From NCBI GenBank assembly GCA_026004935.1, contig BPKC01000001.1:1403491-1467490 (forward strand): a DNA stretch of 64,000 bases. The letters are read 5' to 3'. Position 1 is the stretch's first letter. Each line of letters starts with the position of its first letter. Positions 46,960 to 56,363 of the stretch are shown piece by piece. The position numbers and the translations under genes are program-made. The stretch is from Rhodothalassiaceae bacterium (lineage in GTDB: Bacteria; Pseudomonadota; Alphaproteobacteria; Sphingomonadales; Rhodothalassiaceae). A model generated the notes under the pieces. It was not told where the DNA came from. It did no database searches and saw nothing but the letters and a program-made list of their open reading frames with translations.

Positions 46960-47480
46960 AGCGGTGCGTGCGCTTCCTTTCCCTCGTCGCCCGCCGGCCC
47001 CCCCCCTCTCTGCGTCACCCGCCGGCTCGACCGGCGGGTCCAGCGGAAAGGGAACCAACCCCGAGCGCCGGGATCGTCGCGCAGGGCGGCTGGATTCGCC
47101 GCTTTCGCGGCGAATGACGAGGAAAGAGGACGTCACCCGCCGGCACCCCCCTCTCTGCGTCACCCGCCGGCTCGACCGGCGGGTCCAGCGGAAAGGGAAC
47201 CAACCCCGAGCGCCGGGATCGTCGCGCAGGGCGGCTGGATTCGCCGCTTTCGCGGCGAATGACGAAAGAGGAGAGCGTCACCCGCCGGCACCCCCTCTCT
47301 GCGTCACCCGCCGTCGCGCCCTCTCCACCTTCGCCCACCGGCTGCTGGCTCGCTTTCACCCGTCGAGCAGCTGAAATCGTCACCCGCCGGCTTGACCGGC
47401 GGGTCCAGCCCGCAGCGGAGCTAATCCCGGTGGCGGGGGATGCGTTCGCCGCCTCATGGGTTCGCCGGTCAAGCCGGCGA
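46960..47480. repeat. palindromic repeat block 4 with near-identical 145-base tandem units
   Basis: Between convergent tgt and the ArsR-type gene. A unit of 145 bases starts at 47011 and again at 47156, nearly identical, with a truncated third at 47300. Each contains CACCCGCCGGCTCGACC GGCGGGT, the spacer GGAAAGGGAACCAACCCCGA, GGATCGTCGCGCAGGGCGG and the TTCGCCGCTTTCGCGGCGAA palindrome. Two further elements near 47380-47403 and 47458-47480 end the block. Frames here are repeat translations. Confidence 0.88.
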
Positions 47481-47573: not shown

Positions 47574-47894
47574 TCACCCGTCGGCCCCCTCGCGGGGGGC
47601 GCAGAAGAGCTGGTAGAGCGTCTCGAGCAGCACCCGGGTGCGGTCATCCGCGATGCGGTAGTAGATGGTCTGGGCCTCGCGGCGGGTCGCGACGATGCCC
47701 TCGCGGCGCAACAATGCGAGATGCTGGGAGACCGTCGCCTGCCGCAGGCCCAGGCTCTCCGCCAGCCGGCCCACCGGCGTCTCGCCCTCCGCCAGCCGGC
47801 ACAGGATCATCAGCCGCGTGGGCTGCCCGAGGGCCTGAAGAAACCCGCTGGCTTCCTCGGCGGCGTTGATCATGCGCGCGGGCTCTATATTCAT
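47574..47894 (-). CDS. BigR/SqrR-type ArsR-family persulfide-sensing repressor
   Basis: A 106-residue winged-helix repressor. Cys32 (ILCRLAEGE) and Cys98 (LYQLFC) are 66 residues apart, the same spacing as the sensing pair of SqrR (41 and 107) that form a polysulfide bridge. The recognition helix region is GLRQATVSQHLALLRREGIV at 49-68. It is divergent from a sulfide:quinone oxidoreductase gene, the classic target. Start is uncertain: ATG at 47894 (inside the candidate operator), in-frame ATG at 47873, or TTG at 47933; none has a strong ribosome-binding site. Confidence 0.88.
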   Translation of the reverse strand: MNIEPARMINAAEEASGFLQALGQPTRLMILCRLAEGETPVGRLAESLGLRQATVSQHLALLRREGIVATRREAQTIYYRIADDRTRVLLETLYQLFCAPREGADG

Positions 47895-47908
47895 ACTTGC
47901 GAATATTC
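47888..47908. promoter_or_regulatory. candidate SqrR/BigR operator
   Basis: Inverted repeat TATTC, eight bases, GAATA (47888-47892 and 47901-47905), overlapped by a perfect GAATATTC at 47901-47908, at the 5' end of the repressor gene in the divergent region. AT-rich dyads are the usual sites of this family. The position overlapping the start codon suggests autoregulation. Confidence 0.5.
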
Positions 47909-48125
47909 CACGGCGCGTATATACTAGCAGCAACCCCGGTCCGGCTCAATGGGCTGTTATCGATTCTGCCCGGGGAAGGCAAGAACCGGCCCGGCTGAAC
48001 CGGGGCAATCGCGAAACGGCGTGAGTGGGATGGAACGTTGTGTCGGTGCCGGGTCATGACAGCGGTAAGAAACGATCGCGATCCGCGGCGGGAAAGCCGG
48101 TGACGAGAGGAGGAGGAGAACCCCC

Positions 48126-49409
48126 ATGGCGCATATCGTGATACTGGGCGGGGGCGTCGGCGGCGTGTCGATGGCCTATGAGATGCGCGAACAGGCCCGG
48201 CGCGACGACAGGATCACCCTGATATCCGACCGTGACCATTTTCAGTTCACGCCGTCCAATCCCTGGGTGGCGGTCGGCTGGCGCGAGCCGGAGCGCATCA
48301 AGGTGCCGCTTGCCGAGCCGCTGGCACGCAAACGGATTGCATTCATGCCGCATGCGGCTACCCGCCTGGATCCCGCCCATTCCCGGATCGTGCTTGCCAA
48401 TGGCGAGTCGGTGGCCTACGACTTTCTGGTGATCGCGACCGGGCCGGAACTCGCCTTTGATGAGATTGAAGGCTTCGGCCCCGCTTCCCTCGGCGGCCAC
48501 ACCGTTTCGATCTGCACCACGGATCATGCGGCAGAAGCGAAGAGGGCCTTCGACCGTTTCATCACGGATCCGGGACCGGTCGTGATCGGTGCGGTCCAAG
48601 GCGCATCCTGCTTCGGACCGGCCTATGAATTCGCCTTCATTCTGGACGCCGAATTGAAGCGCCGGCGGATCCGCGACCGGGTACCGATTACCTTCGTCAC
48701 CTCCGAGCCCTATATCGGGCACATGGGGCTTGACGGGGTCGGCAACAGCAAGGGGCTGATCGAAGCGGCCTTCCGCGAACGCGACATCAAGTGGATCACC
48801 AATGCGAAGGTCGAGCGGTTCCGCGCCGATGGTCTTGACGTGATCGAGGTGGACGAGGACGGTGCCGAGAGGAAAAGGCACGCACTGGAGTCCCGTTTTA
48901 CGATGATGCTGCCGGCCTTTCGCGGGATCGCGCCGCTCAAGGGAATCGAAGGCCTCGTCAATCCGCGCGGCTTCGTGCTGACCGACCGGCATCAGCGCAA
49001 CGAGGCCTTCCCGAATGTCTTTTCCGTCGGCGTGTGCATCGCCATCCCCCCGGTGGGCAGGACGCCCGTGCCGGTAGGCGTCCCGAAGACCGGCTTCATG
49101 ATCGAATCCATGGTCGCCGCCGCCGCGCGGAACATCCGTCAGCTTCTTGACGGGAAGGAACCCGAGCACGAGGCCACCTGGAATGCCATCTGTCTGGCCG
49201 ATTTCGGCGACACCGGCATGGCCTTCGTGGCGATGCCGCAGATTCCGCCGCGCAATGTCAGCTGGACGGGGGAGGGCAAGTGGGTTCATCTCGCCAAGAT
49301 CGGTTTCGAGAAATATTTTTTGCGCAAGGTTCGCCAGGGTCAGACCGTTCCGCTCTATGAGCGACTCGTGCTGGATCTTCTGGGCGCGCACAAGATTCGC
49401 GCTGACTGA
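48126..49409 (+). CDS. sqr: sulfide:quinone oxidoreductase
   Basis: A 427-residue FAD enzyme that oxidises sulfide to polysulfide and reduces the quinone pool at the membrane. ILGGGVGGVSMA at 6-17 binds FAD. Cys130, Cys162 (GASCFGPAYEF) and Cys356 match the three redox cysteines known in A. ferrooxidans SQR (128, 160, 356). The C-terminal VHLAKIGFEKYFLRKVRQG amphipathic region would contact the membrane. Its divergent neighbour is the persulfide repressor, and a GAGGAGGAG site precedes it. Confidence 0.93.
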   Translation: MAHIVILGGGVGGVSMAYEMREQARRDDRITLISDRDHFQFTPSNPWVAVGWREPERIKVPLAEPLARKRIAFMPHAATRLDPAHSRIVLANGESVAYDFLVIATGPELAFDEIEGFGPASLGGHTVSICTTDHAAEAKRAFDRFITDPGPVVIGAVQGASCFGPAYEFAFILDAELKRRRIRDRVPITFVTSEPYIGHMGLDGVGNSKGLIEAAFRERDIKWITNAKVERFRADGLDVIEVDEDGAERKRHALESRFTMMLPAFRGIAPLKGIEGLVNPRGFVLTDRHQRNEAFPNVFSVGVCIAIPPVGRTPVPVGVPKTGFMIESMVAAAARNIRQLLDGKEPEHEATWNAICLADFGDTGMAFVAMPQIPPRNVSWTGEGKWVHLAKIGFEKYFLRKVRQGQTVPLYERLVLDLLGAHKIRAD

Positions 49410-49493
49410 ATGAAGTTCGTATGCTGTCGAGTGCGGCATGCATCGCCGACGATGGATGGCGCGCGCAGCGAAGAAGCGTGAGGGAGGATGACC

Positions 49494-50354
49494 ATGTCCG
49501 TTCCATCGACGGGCCGTGAGGTTGGGGCGGCTTTCCGTGATGGCCGTGTTGCGGGGCGGGGCGCAAAACGATCGGTTCTCCTGCGGCTGGCGGTAGCGCT
49601 CGTGGCCGGATCCTTCGCTCTGTTCGCAGGGATGGGTGCGGCGTCGGCCGAACCGACCAGGGTCGTCGTCCATGTCCTGGCGCAGGGGGCGAAGTTCATC
49701 GGCTCCAGCGTCGGCGGCGCCGAGGTGACCATCCGGGATGCCGCGACGGGCGCGCTGCTCGCCCATGGCGTCACGTCCGGGACCACCGGCGACACCGCGC
49801 GGATCATGCGCGCGCGCCATCCCCGCAACCGCGTGCTCTCCACCCCCGACGCCGCGCGCTTCGAGGCGGTGCTGGACATCGACGCCCCGCGCGAGGTGGT
49901 GATCACGGCGCGCGGGCCGCTGGCGGCACCCCAGGCGACGGCGGAAGCGTCCACGAGGCTGTGGCTCCTGCCCGGCGTCGATCGCACGGCGGGCGACGGC
50001 GTGCTGCTGGAGCTGTCCGGGCTCATCGTCGCGCCCGTCACCCCGGCATTCCACACGACGGCGTCGGCGGGAGCGCCGGTGGCGCTGGAGACCCGGCTGC
50101 TGATGCTGTGCGGCTGCCCGATCGCGCCGGGCCTGCTGTGGGATGCGGCGGATTTTTCGCTTTCCGTGCGCGTGACGGCCCCGGACGGGACGGTGACCAC
50201 CGTGCCCCTCGGCTACGGCGGCAGGACCAGCCATTTCACCGGCAGCTTCACGCCGCCCGCCGCCGGCGTCTACCGGCTGGAGTGGCTGGCGCTGCAGAAG
50301 AGCACCGGCCAGGTCGGCCGCGCCGAGACCACGCTCATCGTGACGGCGTCATAG
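49494..50354 (+). CDS. periplasmic protein of unknown function in the sulfide operon
   Basis: A 286-residue protein with a long N-terminal export signal (hydrophobic 29-50, cleavage near ASA-EP at 52). The mature part looks like two beta-rich domains: VVVHVLAQGAKFIGSSVGGAEVTIRD then VRVTAPDGTVTTVPLGYGG and a C-terminal VYRLEWLALQKSTGQVGRAETTLIVTAS strand set. A CGC pair is at 206-208. Similar to nothing I can name. The start at 49494 has GGGAGG at six bases. It lies between sqr and the RND genes in the same direction, so it likely works with that export system. Confidence 0.75.
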   Translation: MSVPSTGREVGAAFRDGRVAGRGAKRSVLLRLAVALVAGSFALFAGMGAASAEPTRVVVHVLAQGAKFIGSSVGGAEVTIRDAATGALLAHGVTSGTTGDTARIMRARHPRNRVLSTPDAARFEAVLDIDAPREVVITARGPLAAPQATAEASTRLWLLPGVDRTAGDGVLLELSGLIVAPVTPAFHTTASAGAPVALETRLLMLCGCPIAPGLLWDAADFSLSVRVTAPDGTVTTVPLGYGGRTSHFTGSFTPPAAGVYRLEWLALQKSTGQVGRAETTLIVTAS

Positions 50355-50406
50355 CACCGGGCTCAAGCGAGAGCGGGCGGAATCGCGCGGGAGGAAAGGC
50401 CGGCCG

Positions 50407-53400
50407 ATGGGGATGCTTTCAGCCGTCATCGACTTCTTCCTGAAGCGCAATGTGACGCCCTTTCTCATCGTGTTCTCGCTGCTGCTCGGCGCTCTCGCGC
50501 TTGCGCTCACCGCGCGCGAGGAGGAGCCCCAGATCGTCGTGCCGATGGCCGACGTGCTGATCCGCGCACCGGGCCTGTCGGTGGGCGAGGTCGAGCGGCA
50601 GGTGGCGACCCCGCTCGAGAAGCTCTTCGCCCAGATCGACGGGGTCGAGCATGTCTACTCCATGTCGCTGCCGGGCCGGGCCGTGGTCACCGTCCGCTTC
50701 TACGTCGGCGAGGACCGCGAGGAGAGCCTCGTCAAGCTCTACAACAAGCTCTATTCGAATACGGACCGGATCCCGCCGGATGTCGCCTCCTGGGTGGTGA
50801 AGCCGGTGGAGATCGACGATGTGCCCATCGTCATCGCCACCCTGTGGTCGGATCGCCCCGGGGAGGTGGACGATTACGCCCTGCGCCGCATCGCCGAGGA
50901 GGTCGAGACCGAGCTCAAGGCCCTGCCGGAGACCAACCGCACCGAGATCGTCGGAGGCCGGCCCCGGCAGATCCGGGTGCTGCTGGATCCGGATGCGCTG
51001 GCGGCGCACCGCACCTCGGCGCTCGATGTCGCCTGGGCGCTCGGGGTGTCGAACCGGCAGGCGCAGACGGAAGGCTTCGACCGGGCGGACCGGCACTTCC
51101 TCGTCGATGCCGGCGTCTTCTTCCCCGATGCCGAGGCGCTGCGCCGGGCCGTCGTCAATGTGGTCGACGGCCGGCCCGTCTATCTCTCGCAGGTGGCCGA
51201 GGTGGTGGACGGCCCGGCCGAACGCAGGGCGCTGAGCTGGATCGGCTTCGGCGCGGCGGCGGCCGGCGATCCCGGGGCGGGAGAGGTGACGCCGGGCAGG
51301 CTGTATCCCGCCGTCCACATCGCGGTGGCCAAGCAGAAGGGGACGAATGCGGTCACCGTGGCCCGCCGCATCGAGGAGCGGCTCGCCGAGCTGGCCGCCA
51401 CGCATTTTCCCGAAGGCGTCCATGTGCGGATCACCCGCGACTACGGCGAGACGGCCAACGACAAGGTCAACGAGCTCCTGGAAGGGTTGCTGGTCGCGCT
51501 CGTCATCGTCATCGCGCTGTTCGCCTGGAGCCTGGGCTGGCGCGAGGGGCTGGTGGTGGCGACCGCCGTGCCGATCACCTTCGCGCTCACTCTGTTCGTC
51601 AACTGGTGGGCGGGCTACACCATCAACCGGGTGACGCTGTTCGCGCTCATCCTCTCGCTGGGGCTCGTCGTGGACGACCCGGTGGTGGATGTCGAGAACA
51701 TCTACCGGCATCTGCGGGCCAAGCTGGAGCCGCCGCTCGATGCGGTGCGCCGGGCCGTCAACGAGGTGCGCCCGCCGATCCTTCTCGCGACGCTGGCGGT
51801 GATCGTCTCCTTCCTGCCCATGTATCTGATCACCGGCATGATGGGCCCCTACATGAGCCCGATGGCCTTGAACGTGCCGGTGGCCATGCTGATGTCGATG
51901 GTGGTCGCCTTCACCGTCACGCCCTGGCTCAGCTACCATGTGCTGAAGGCCAAGGCGGAAAAGGCGCCGCCCGATCCGGCTGCGCGCGACGTCACGAAGT
52001 CCGTGATCTACCGGCGCTATGAGCGCCTGATCGCCCCCTTCATCGAAAGCCCGCGGGCGGCGGCGCTGTTTCTCGGCGTGCTGGCACTGCTGTTTTTCGG
52101 GGCGAGCGCGATGGCCGCGCTCCGGCTCGTGCCGCTCAAGATGCTGCCGTTCGACAACAAGAACGAGTTCCAGATCATGGTGAACCCGCCCGAGGGCACG
52201 ACGCTCGAGCGCACGGATGCCATCGCCCGTGCCCTCGGCGAGGTGCTGCGGCGCGCCCGCGAGGTCAAGGATTTCGAAATCTACGTCGGCACCGCCAGCC
52301 CCATGGATTTCAACGGCATGGTCCGCCACACCTATCTGCGCGAGGGGCCCAATGTTGCCGACATCCGCGTGAACCTCATCGGCAAGAAGCGGCGTGAGCA
52401 GCAGTCCCACGAGATCACCCTGCGGCTGCGCAAGGAGCTGGAGGCGGTCGCGCACCGCATGGGCAGCCGCATCCAGATCGTCGAGGTGCCGCCGGGACCG
52501 CCGGTGCTGGCGACGGTGACCGCCGAAATCTACGGTGCCCCCGGCACCGACTACGAAACCATCAGGAAGGCGGCGCTCGTCACCGCGGCGCGTCTGGCGC
52601 GCGAGCCGGGGGTGCGCGATGTCGACACCACGGTGGAGGACGATGCGCCGCGGCTCGTCTTCGTCACCGACAAGGAGAAGGCGGCGCTTTCCGGGATCGC
52701 GACGGAGGACATCGCCGAGACGCTCGACATCGCCCTCGACGGCGCCGAGGTCGGCCGCCTTCACGACCCGCACGAGGCCCAGCCGCTGCCCATCCTTCTC
52801 GAGGTGCCGCGCGCGGAGCGGTCCGGCATCGACAAGCTCGCCGCGCTCACGGTGAAGGGCCGGCCCGGCATCGTGGAGGTGAGCGAGCCCGGCGGCACGC
52901 GCGCCGGTCCCGTGCCGGTCGTGCGCCTGGGCGAGCTCGGCCGCTTCGTCGAAGAGGGAGCGGAAAAGGCGATCTACCACAAGGACCTGAAGCGCGTCGC
53001 CTATGTCTATGCCGAACCCGTCGGCCGCGCGCCGGCGGCCGTCGTCGCCGATGTAGAGGCGGACCGGCTGGAGCCGGGGGAGCCGGCGCCGAAGATCGAG
53101 GGGCGGGTGCCGCGGCCGCTGTCGGAGCGCAGCTATCTGTCCAACGGCGGCGGCGACTTCTGGTCGCTGCCCGCGGGCACGCGGGTCGAGTGGCTGGGCG
53201 AGGGCGAGCTGAAGATCACCAGAGACGTCTTCCGCGATCTCGGCATCGCCTTCGGCGTCGCGCTCGTCGGCATCTACATGATCCTCGTCTATCAGACGGC
53301 GAGCTATGCGATGCCCTTCATCCTGATGCTGTCGATACCGCTCACCATGATCGGGATCATGCCGGGCTTCTGGCTGCTGAACCAGCTGAGCGGCGCCCCG

Positions 53401-53797
53401 ATCGCGGGCTTTGCGAACCCGACATTCTTCACCGCCACCGCGATGATCGGGATGATCGCGCTCTCGGGCATCGCCGTGCGCAACGCCATCCTGCTGATCG
53501 AGTTTCTCCATGTGGCGCTCGCGCGGGGGCATTCCTCTGCGCGAGGCGGTCTGCCATGCGGGAGCCGTGCGCACGCGGCCGATCCTGCTGACCGCCGGGC
53601 CGGCGATGCTGGCGGCGATCCCGATCACGCTCGATCCCGTGTTCTCGGGGCTCGCCTGGGCGCTGATCTTCGGGCTGGTGGTCTCCACCGCCTTCACCCT
53701 GCTGGTCGTGCCGATGACCTACTACTGGGTCTACCGCAACAGGCCCGGACACGGGCTGCCGCGGGGCATGACGGTTGTCGAGGAGTTGCCGGAATGA
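50407..53797 (+). pseudogene. RND efflux permease, reading frame shifted by one base near its end
   Basis: AcrB-like permease, about 1129 residues once corrected. N-terminal FFLKRNVTPFLIVFSLLLGAL is TM1, Asp423-Asp424 in GLVVDDPVVDVENIYRH is the proton relay of TM4, and a second set of segments follows. At the G5 run 53525-53529 the frame changes: upstream encodes HVALARG, and the matching permease end (IPLREAVCHAGAVRTRPILLTAGPAML) lies in the next frame to 53797. With four G it would be continuous. As read, the upstream frame runs into the downstream fusion protein. Error, mutation and programmed shift are all possible. Confidence 0.88.
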
Positions 53798-54897
53798 AGA
53801 TGAACGGACATGCGATCTGGCGCATCGGCGAGGCGGCGGCCGGCATCCTCGTCGCCGTCCTCGTGCTCGTCTGGCTCGCCGGCGGCTTCAACAGGAAGGT
53901 TCCCCCCGGCGAGGAGGCGCTGGCCGGCCCGGCGCCGCCTCAAGGCGCCGCGACCGCGACCGCCACGCCTGAAGAGGTCGCGGTCGTCGAATGGACGAGC
54001 GGCACGCTCGCCTCCGCCCGGCGCACCGCCGTCTCCTCCCGCATCCTCGCCCGCATCCGGGAGCTCAAGGTGCGCGCGGGCGACACGGTCAAGGCGGGCG
54101 ATGTGCTCGTCATCCTCGATGCGCGCGATTACGAGGCGCGGGTGCGGGCCGCGCGCGATGCGCTGAATGCCGCAAGGGCCCGCCTGAAGCTTGCCGAATC
54201 CGAGCTCGCCCGCATCCGGCCGCTGTTCGAGAAGGGGGTGGTTCCGCGCCGGCGTCTCGACGAGGCCGAAAGCGCCCATGATGCGGCCGCCGCCGAGGTC
54301 CGCCGCCTCGAGCAGCAGCTGCGCGAGGCCGAGACCCTGCTCAGCTATACCGTGATCCGCGCCCCGGTCTCGGGCCGGGTCGTGGACCGGCTGGCCGAGC
54401 CGGGCGACATGGCGGTGCCGGCCGAGCCGATTCTCAGAATCTACGATCCGACGCTGCTGCGCGTCGAGGTGCCGGTGCGCGAGGCGCTGGCGGTGCATCT
54501 CGGCATCGGCGACCGGCTGGATGTGGAGGTGCCCTCGCTTGCGGCACGCTTCGTCGGCACGGTCCAGGAGATCGTCCCGTTCGCGGATCCGGGCGCGCGC
54601 ACGCTGCTGTTCAAGATCGCGCTTCCCAGAGACGAGCGGCTGTTCGCCGGGATGTATGCGCGGGTGGCGGTGCCGGCCGGCCGCGCGCGGATCATCGCCG
54701 TGCCCGGGCAGGCGCTCACGCGCATCGGCCAGCTCCTGTTCCTGACCGTGCTGGACGGGGACGGCCGGCCGATCCACCGCATGGTCACCGCCGGCCGCAG
54801 GCTCGACGGCGACCGCATCGAGATTCTCTCGGGCCTCGCCGCCGGCGAACGGTATCTCGTGGCCGACGCCGGAGCCGGGCCGGAATCGCCGACCTGA
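53794..54897 (+). CDS. RND membrane fusion protein (HlyD/AcrA-type)
   Basis: A 367-residue periplasmic adaptor with an N-terminal membrane segment (about 15-31). A split lipoyl-like domain flanks a coiled coil: RIRELKVRAGDTVKAGDVLVILDARDYEA, then the helical hairpin region, then YTVIRAPVSGRVVDRLAEPGD. The beta-barrel and proximal domains follow. The start overlaps the permease stop (ATGA), and no outer-membrane TolC-like gene follows, so a shared channel must be elsewhere. It would link the RND permease to the cell surface. Confidence 0.92.
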   Translation: MKMNGHAIWRIGEAAAGILVAVLVLVWLAGGFNRKVPPGEEALAGPAPPQGAATATATPEEVAVVEWTSGTLASARRTAVSSRILARIRELKVRAGDTVKAGDVLVILDARDYEARVRAARDALNAARARLKLAESELARIRPLFEKGVVPRRRLDEAESAHDAAAAEVRRLEQQLREAETLLSYTVIRAPVSGRVVDRLAEPGDMAVPAEPILRIYDPTLLRVEVPVREALAVHLGIGDRLDVEVPSLAARFVGTVQEIVPFADPGARTLLFKIALPRDERLFAGMYARVAVPAGRARIIAVPGQALTRIGQLLFLTVLDGDGRPIHRMVTAGRRLDGDRIEILSGLAAGERYLVADAGAGPESPT

Positions 54898-54990: not shown

Positions 54991-55227
54991 TCAGAACCGC
55001 CACGTCCACTTCATGCCGATCTTGATTTGCTCCGCAGCGCCGAGCTTGGGCTTACATTTGCATTTGAGGGCGATGACCTCACCGGCATTCAAGGTCTGGG
55101 ACCGGGCGCTCGTCGATGCCGCCGCGGCAAAAGACGCGGCTGCAAGCAGTGTGATCATCACCAATTTCGCCGACAGGCGCAGCGCCCGATCACGCGTCGC
55201 AATTGATGGACCGACAAACATCTTCAT
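54991..55227 (-). CDS. small secreted peptide with a CKCK motif
   Basis: A 78-residue protein with a signal peptide (hydrophobic 21-38; cleavage probably in the ASTSARS/QT region near 44). The mature part is about 35 residues, basic, with KCKCKPKLG at 55-63 and a WTWRF end. No family recognised. Its start overlaps the stop of the TPR gene (ATGA), so the two are translated together. It could be a toxin, modified peptide precursor or structural peptide; none is supported by more than shape. Confidence 0.65.
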   Translation of the reverse strand: MKMFVGPSIATRDRALRLSAKLVMITLLAAASFAAAASTSARSQTLNAGEVIALKCKCKPKLGAAEQIKIGMKWTWRF

Positions 55228-56195
55228 TTCTCCCCGGAATTTCCCGGCGTGGCGCGGTCGGTCGTCAGCGTGCAGTCCGACGACCCGGCCATGGCCGCGA
55301 TGAGCGGCGAATGGGCGTTCCCGTCTTCGATGACCCCGGTGCTCGCCGCGACGAGGCGCTTCTGGTCCGGCGTCGCCGCGAGTGCGGCCGCCTCGTCGAG
55401 AGCCTTGCGGGCGGAAGCATCATCTCCGTAGAGCGCGTACGACTGCGCAAGATTCATGTAGACGCCGGAGGCCATGTCCGCCATCGCGGGATCCCCGATG
55501 GTCTCGGCAATCCGCCGGTAATCGGCCGCGACCGCCTCGAGTTCAGGAATCGCCTTGCGGCCGTCAAGGGTCACATGCAGCAGGGCGCGCTCCATTCTCG
55601 CACTGAGGGTGAGGATGTCGTCCTCGCCCCGCGTTCGCGAGAATCCCTCGATGGCCCACGCATAGAGCCTGTCCGCGCGCCGGGCCAAGGCTTTCATCTT
55701 CTTCCGGGCGTCCCGGCTGTCCATCGCCGACGCGAAGCAGTGGCGAAGATCCGCGGGGATGGTTTCGCCGCGCGCGACGGGGTCGAGACGATCCACTTCA
55801 TCCGCGAGCATGCTGGCCAGCCGGTAGGAGATCAGCGGATCACGCGGTGCAAGCCGGTGAGCTTCCTCCTGATACGCGAGCGCCCTGTCCCTGTTTCCGG
55901 ACTCGTCATAGGCGCGTCCCAGTGCGGACAGCAGGCGGGCCTCGCCGGGCCATCTCGCCGCCGCGTCTTCGCCATAGACGATCGCGTCAAGCGCATGGTC
56001 GTGCTCGACGAGACAGAGAACCCGGCTGGCCGCCCCTTCGGCGGAGTCCCTATCCGGCTCCGGGCATTCGGCGCCGGCGGCCGACGCTCTTGCCGGGAGC
56101 GCGCCGAGGCCGAGAAGAAGAAGCGCGAGCGCGGCCGTGCCCGACCGCAGCAGCCCATTCGCCCGTGCATCGATGCGGTTGCACGATCTCGACAT
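55224..56195 (-). CDS. secreted TPR-type protein
   Basis: A 323-residue exported protein: signal peptide to about residue 40, then helical repeats such as ALGRAYDESGNRDRALAYQEEAHRLAPRDP near 90-119 and MNLAQSYALYGDDASARKALDEAAAL near 246-271, which have TPR character. Two Cys near 44 and 60 may be bridged. AGGAGGGG precedes the start. It is coupled to the downstream small CKCK peptide, suggesting a partner or carrier role. Function unknown. Confidence 0.75.
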   Translation of the reverse strand: MSRSCNRIDARANGLLRSGTAALALLLLGLGALPARASAAGAECPEPDRDSAEGAASRVLCLVEHDHALDAIVYGEDAAARWPGEARLLSALGRAYDESGNRDRALAYQEEAHRLAPRDPLISYRLASMLADEVDRLDPVARGETIPADLRHCFASAMDSRDARKKMKALARRADRLYAWAIEGFSRTRGEDDILTLSARMERALLHVTLDGRKAIPELEAVAADYRRIAETIGDPAMADMASGVYMNLAQSYALYGDDASARKALDEAAALAATPDQKRLVAASTGVIEDGNAHSPLIAAMAGSSDCTLTTDRATPGNSGEK

Positions 56196-56363
56196 CGGAT
56201 CCCCTCCTCTCCAAGAAGGCCCCCCATCCGACTCCGGCGCATTTCTACATCAAGGAGGTGACGAGATCAAGGCAAATGCATTCCGGAAGACGAATGCACA
56301 ATTCCGGTGCAGAATGGAAATCGAATCTGCCGCATGAAGCGGCGCCGTACGGGCACGGGACGC

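Follow-up and report, generated by a model that had tools for sequence, protein, structure and literature searches.

An SqrR-like repressor, a sulfide:quinone reductase, an exported C-G-C protein and an RND pump at a candidate sulfide-stress locus of a Rhodothalassiaceae bacterium

The window analysed here, a stretch of 64,000 nucleotides from a Rhodothalassiaceae bacterium (contig BPKC01000001.1), carries at positions 47574–54897 the genes of an ArsR repressor, a sulfide:quinone reductase (SQR) and an exported protein, here termed EXP, together with those of an RND permease and the matching periplasmic adaptor (MFP). All five components had been named in an initial annotation and were found again, with matches in PDB, Pfam and NCBIfam; their coordinates are listed in Table 1. 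The plus-strand genes are separated by 78 (SQR/EXP), 52 (EXP/RND) and −4 (RND/MFP) bases, and no terminator-like site was found in the gaps between them. The ArsR gene is divergent from the rest, which makes the locus a divergon rather than a single five-gene transcript; SQR, EXP, RND and MFP share one direction, and the repressor does not. The permease and adaptor of the proposed tripartite efflux system are present, but no outer-membrane TolC gene was found at the locus; TolC-family proteins are encoded elsewhere in the genome, from where this component must come. In G001, a sister of the same genus, ArsR, SQR and EXP lie at the end of a different contig from RND and adaptor. Ahead of the repressor gene, the intergenic region is filled by two 145-base direct repeats with 96% identity (47001–47290), and it holds a further partial copy at 47378–47409. 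Just downstream of the adaptor gene, the minus strand encodes an exported TPR-repeat protein (55224–56195), for which no sulfur link was seen.

Table 1. Features of the locus, in positions of the window.
Feature	Position	Strand	Basis
SqrR/BigR-like ArsR repressor	47574..47894	-	PDB matches, Pfam HTH_5
Predicted SqrR-type operator, ATTC-N8-GAAT	47889..47904		exact pattern match
Sigma-70-like promoter match, TTGCGA-17-TATACT	47897..47925	+	upstream of sqr, overlaps operator
Type I sulfide:quinone reductase (SQR)	48126..49409	+	PDB match, catalytic cysteines
EXP, exported two-domain protein with signal peptide	49488..50354	+	family alignment, model
RND permease, with a one-base frame break	50407..53797	+	PF00873
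RND periplasmic adaptor (MFP)	53794..54897	+	TIGR01730

The repressor may start at the ATG at 47894 or at 47873, a TTG at 47933 being less likely. Its best PDB matches were 13ct/6o8l (E 1.5e-21), which we take to be SqrR, and BigR (3pqj), and the two sensor cysteines line up: Cys 45 and Cys 111, numbered in a 119-residue frame, fall on the SqrR cysteines. The score against the NCBIfam BigR equivalog NF040642 was 96.3 bits, below the cut-off of 155, and the protein is therefore named SqrR/BigR-like, not BigR. The predicted operator matches the deduced recognition site of RcSqrR (PMC9774250) and sits within the extended palindrome ATATTC-N8-GAATAT (47887–47906); the sister species conserves it in the same position (L018:2587–2602). 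The window holds three matches to ATTC-N8-GAAT, compared with 0.34 expected, the other two being located within sqr (48639) and at 56280, neither at a promoter of the operon. Sigma-70-like matches numbered two in 8 kb, compared with 0.5 expected from shuffles, and the second lies inside the permease gene. As the regulator has the SqrR pair of cysteines and an operator of the SqrR type, the earlier prediction of a persulfide-sensing repressor was supported. Both cysteines also occupy the SqrR positions in 27 of 43 ArsR genes found near pumps of the same RND subfamily as that of the locus.

Enzymes of the SQR family oxidise H2S to sulfane sulfur and pass the electrons into the quinone pool. Residues 2–425 of the SQR aligned with the A. 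ferrooxidans enzyme (3sz0; E 1.4e-144), including all three catalytic cysteines (Cys 130, 162 and 356), and on this full-length similarity the protein is assigned by sequence as a type I SQR, in agreement with its first identification. No Blh-type dioxygenase scored over the cut-off in the genome of the window; this absence fits export of sulfur but does not show it.

The frame of the permease gene is broken by one base at about 53,523–53,537. The first 1039 residues matched PF00873 (ACR_tran) with 456.7 bits (E 1.9e-136; cut-off 28), which places the protein among the RND (AcrB/AcrD/AcrF) permeases, and the TM4 Asp-Asp is visible in LVVDDPVVDVENI. Another frame (53510–53797) encodes the final ~85 residues, and there ACR_tran was recovered on 95 residues (E 1.5e-8). 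Sister G001 has the permease in one intact frame of 1127 residues, followed by a separate adaptor gene, which points to an error of assembly or a recent mutation as the origin of the break in the window. A 1496-residue open reading frame spanning 50407–54897 was considered as an RND-adaptor fusion and discarded, given the frame break and an adaptor that is separate from 53794 onwards. The CzcA/CusA heavy-metal type (TIGR00914) was likewise discarded, with 209.4 bits for the permease compared with a cut-off of 701.45. Among the named NCBIfam multidrug RND subfamilies, the best score for the query, which lacked the last ~85 residues, was 348 bits for NF033617, below its cut-off of 1250. The adaptor scored 189.9 bits with TIGR01730 (cut-off 94.9). 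Neither the readable permease (50407–53523) nor the adaptor contains any cysteine at all.

EXP, alone or as a family, gave no match in Pfam, NCBIfam or PDB sequence searches, consistent with the initial annotation, in which the middle protein had no known family. Its AlphaFold2 model (mean pLDDT 95) comprises an N domain of the transthyretin/CnaB type (Z 8–10 in fold comparison) and an Ig-like C domain of the filamin/MG4/FnIII type (Z 10–12); both folds are common and thus say little about function. Of the named families considered for EXP (CopC, SoxYZ, CnaB and transthyretin-like), none gave a sequence match; SoxY/Z and CopC, which appeared only among generic beta-sandwich fold matches, are improbable identities. 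The only two cysteines of EXP form a C-G-C motif (residues 208–210; 50109–50117), and the 23 complete family members all share this pattern, with two cysteines and no others downstream of the signal peptide, each belonging to C-G-C.

Relatives of EXP (about 34–72% identity) were found in Sphingomonadales, in other genomes of the phylum sample and in the Bacteroidota genus Niabella, and the family is rare (8/397 genomes). It stands beside SQR, RND and ArsR in the genus of the window, in genome G355 and on plasmids pISP1 and pIBU218; beside a Blh-type dioxygenase and a BigR-like ArsR in two further genomes (G019 and G092); and, in Niabella, next to genes for an MBL-fold protein and for a rhodanese. 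On the LK11 plasmid, TauE/SafE is nearby and DsbB adjoins, and in some genomes, such as Sandarakinorhabdus, EXP lies apart from sulfur genes. A DsrE-like neighbour suspected by eye in G053 had no Pfam or NCBIfam match and was dropped. As the family is rare and often away from pump and SQR, EXP was rejected as an obligate part of the pump. In genome G551 (L107 8461–15087), the genes for EXP, FccB (flavocytochrome c sulfide dehydrogenase) and a cytochrome c are in line with those of an adaptor and permease (MFP-RND) from another RND subfamily (25% identity). Here EXP again accompanies a sulfide dehydrogenase and an RND pump, in a combination separate from that of the window. The settings with SQR-RND-ArsR, with FccB and with Blh-type dioxygenase and BigR-like genes belong to separate lineages.

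A role in the handling of periplasmic sulfane sulfur or thiols is likely for EXP. It might instead be a periplasmic metal (e.g. copper) binding or thiol-redox protein, whose C-G-C motif would protect copper sites or exchange disulfides and which would be carried because sulfide disturbs metals and disulfides. The single C-x-C dithiol, the DsbB gene adjoining EXP in LK11 and a generic Ig-like fold, common to CopC, copper-binding FetP and many others, are compatible with such a protein, but the fold matches are unspecific and most genes near EXP belong to sulfide or sulfane-sulfur metabolism, and we regard this alternative as plausible, at well below even confidence.

The neighbourhood of SQR and RND was surveyed in 387 genomes sampled across the class, with the RND subfamily delimited at E ≤ 1e-80, one per genome. 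SQR of the window type occurred in 20 of these genomes, 18 of which also had the RND subfamily; the pump gene lay at most 5 kb from sqr in 13 of the 20, including the window, and at 9 kb in one more. Under random placement in genomes of 2.5–7 Mb, well under one such case is expected. On plasmids, no more than about 4 kb separates SQR and the RND subfamily in Azospirillum, Shinella, Rhizobium, Methylocella, Asticcacaulis, Novosphingobium, Sphingomonas, Rhizorhabdus and Aeromonas, as well as in the cyanobacteria Kovacikia and Pseudanabaena. Co-occurrence of RND and sqr genes, named beforehand as a test of the proposed link, was thus far above chance in many genomes.

In a phylum-wide sample, the RND subfamily was present in 124/299 genomes. 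Forty of its loci were picked by spread over the RND score, neither by neighbours nor at random, and inspected within 5 kb for SQR, SqrR-like ArsR, rhodanese, DUF2892, persulfide dioxygenase, CoA-disulfide reductase (CoADR) and YeeE. At least one of these markers was found at 27/40 loci, compared with 0/20 regions taken at random from the same genomes (Fisher p 1.4e-7), which places the arrangement well above chance, with the proviso that gene proximity is not proof of function. The leading neighbours were DUF2892 (24 loci), ArsR (19), rhodanese (13) and SQR (11). The commonest of them across these loci (L059–L098), ahead of SQR, was thus DUF2892, a YgaP-like membrane domain. Thirteen of the 40 loci had no marker, and the subfamily may therefore not be uniform in function; it was also found at sulfur loci without SQR. 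In a FastTree phylogeny, for which only local support was computed, the clade of the window's permease (support 100) is sulfur-linked throughout, comprising G525 (SQR, DUF2892, TolC), Salinivibrio (ArsR, DUF2892, CoADR, YeeE) and G677 (ArsR, DUF2892).

These counts bear on whether the genes are unrelated neighbours and the pump lacks any tie to sulfide. The 78- and 52-base gaps leave room for separate promoters and EXP stands alone in several genomes, but the gaps carry no terminator-like site, the proximity of SQR and RND recurs in many genomes and plasmids and has no counterpart in the random regions, and the SQR-RND operon of Azospira is induced by H2S (PMC5358917). Chance neighbourhood is accordingly very improbable.

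That operon, Dsui_3440–3443 of Azospira suillum PS, resembles the locus by its described make-up, as it encodes a protein of unknown function, an RND permease, an SQR and an MFP, although its gene order is unlike that of the window (PMC5358917). Bar-seq signals were reported for it, and deletion of the whole operon left the H2S oxidation rate unchanged, in an assay that measured neither tolerance nor sulfur export (PMC5358917). A 2025 survey places RND pumps, along with sqr, pdo and rhd, in the vicinity of ArsR regulators that respond to sulfane sulfur (PMC12423496); the likeness concerns the association of regulator and RND in general terms, and the main text of the survey includes neither a sqr-EXP-RND-MFP unit nor EXP. 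The SqrR-sqr system of Rhodobacter capsulatus shares the two-cysteine ArsR repressor, the ATTC-N8-GAAT site and sqr as a target, but the literature examined on SqrR names SQR and rhodanese as sulfide-controlled, and no RND pump. The BigR operon of Xylella and Agrobacterium (PMC5823870) has a regulator of the same family as the window repressor, but its dioxygenase oxidises sulfane sulfur, whereas the locus of the window has no Blh-type dioxygenase. In Paracoccus, Blh-type dioxygenase genes occur together with YeeE-like and RND genes. In an open-access search, the Azospira study and the 2025 survey were the only direct literature matches for an export function of SQR-linked RND pumps, and earlier notice elsewhere is possible. 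The SQR-RND pairing is therefore not new but known in outline, as far as the Azospira operon and the main text of the survey describe it, and what is added here is its breadth and the EXP family.

Taken together, we favour, at about even confidence, the reading that the locus is a sulfide or sulfane-sulfur stress operon, with an SqrR switch, SQR, a pump for the sulfur product and EXP as accessory. As judged from homology and the operator, polysulfide or persulfide would react with the two ArsR cysteines, and the modified repressor would leave the operator over the sqr promoter. SQR, whose catalytic residues are present, would turn H2S into sulfane sulfur, with the electrons entering the quinone pool. 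The permease and adaptor, with a TolC from elsewhere, may then clear a sulfane-sulfur product or derivative out of the periplasm or the outer leaflet of the cytoplasmic membrane, polysulfane or elemental sulfur being the favoured cargo. EXP would serve as an exported accessory, its C-G-C dithiol binding or exchanging periplasmic sulfane sulfur, as suggested by the invariant motif and the recurrent neighbours. As the pairing of enzyme and pump recurs in many bacteria, the pump probably handles sulfur left by sulfide oxidation, and its presence at loci without SQR makes a general sulfane-sulfur product a more likely cargo than one made by SQR only. Weighing against the favoured reading are the unchanged H2S oxidation rate after deletion of the Azospira operon, the broken permease frame, the 13 marker-free RND loci and the rarity of EXP.

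Alternatively, the pump may clear secondary toxic compounds of sulfide stress, such as metal-sulfide complexes, damaged quinones or lipids, and electrophiles, rather than a sulfur product, with SqrR control linking a stress pump to sulfide. RND pumps have a broad substrate range, and the loci without SQR are compatible with this role as well. Export of metal sulfides was proposed by the authors of the Azospira study (PMC5358917). The permease of the window, however, falls far below the TIGR00914 cut-off for heavy-metal RND proteins, and the sampled neighbours are sulfane-sulfur rather than metal genes, with the reservation that the scored markers were sulfur genes and metal genes were outside the set. 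We regard secondary-toxin clearance as a serious possibility, at less than even confidence.

How the sulfane sulfur made by SQR exits the cell, or is survived, is poorly known, and no transporter for it was found in the open-access literature examined. Concrete candidates open to testing are the pump subfamily, which at most sampled loci has sulfide or sulfane-sulfur genes nearby, and the EXP family, with its one invariant dithiol and sulfur neighbours. More tentatively, and in our estimation rather unlikely as a whole, the RND-MFP(-TolC) subfamily could be specialised for exporting sulfane sulfur, as polysulfane or elemental sulfur made by SQR and related enzymes, across Pseudomonadota and Cyanobacteria, and EXP could found a new family of periplasmic C-G-C proteins acting as sulfane-sulfur carriers for systems based on SQR, flavocytochrome c or persulfide dioxygenase. 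If this were true, the usual label of "multidrug efflux RND" would mislead for many such genes.

Of the plasmids noted above, pISP1 (L023 1–16702) and pIBU218 (L024 1–16699) carry TolC, DUF2892, SQR, rhodanese, MFP, RND, ArsR, DUF3365 and EXP, and both were typed as conjugative by PLSDB. This cluster is possibly a mobile sulfide-tolerance island. A cytochrome bd oxidase cluster, including a TlpA-like protein, adjoins these genes.
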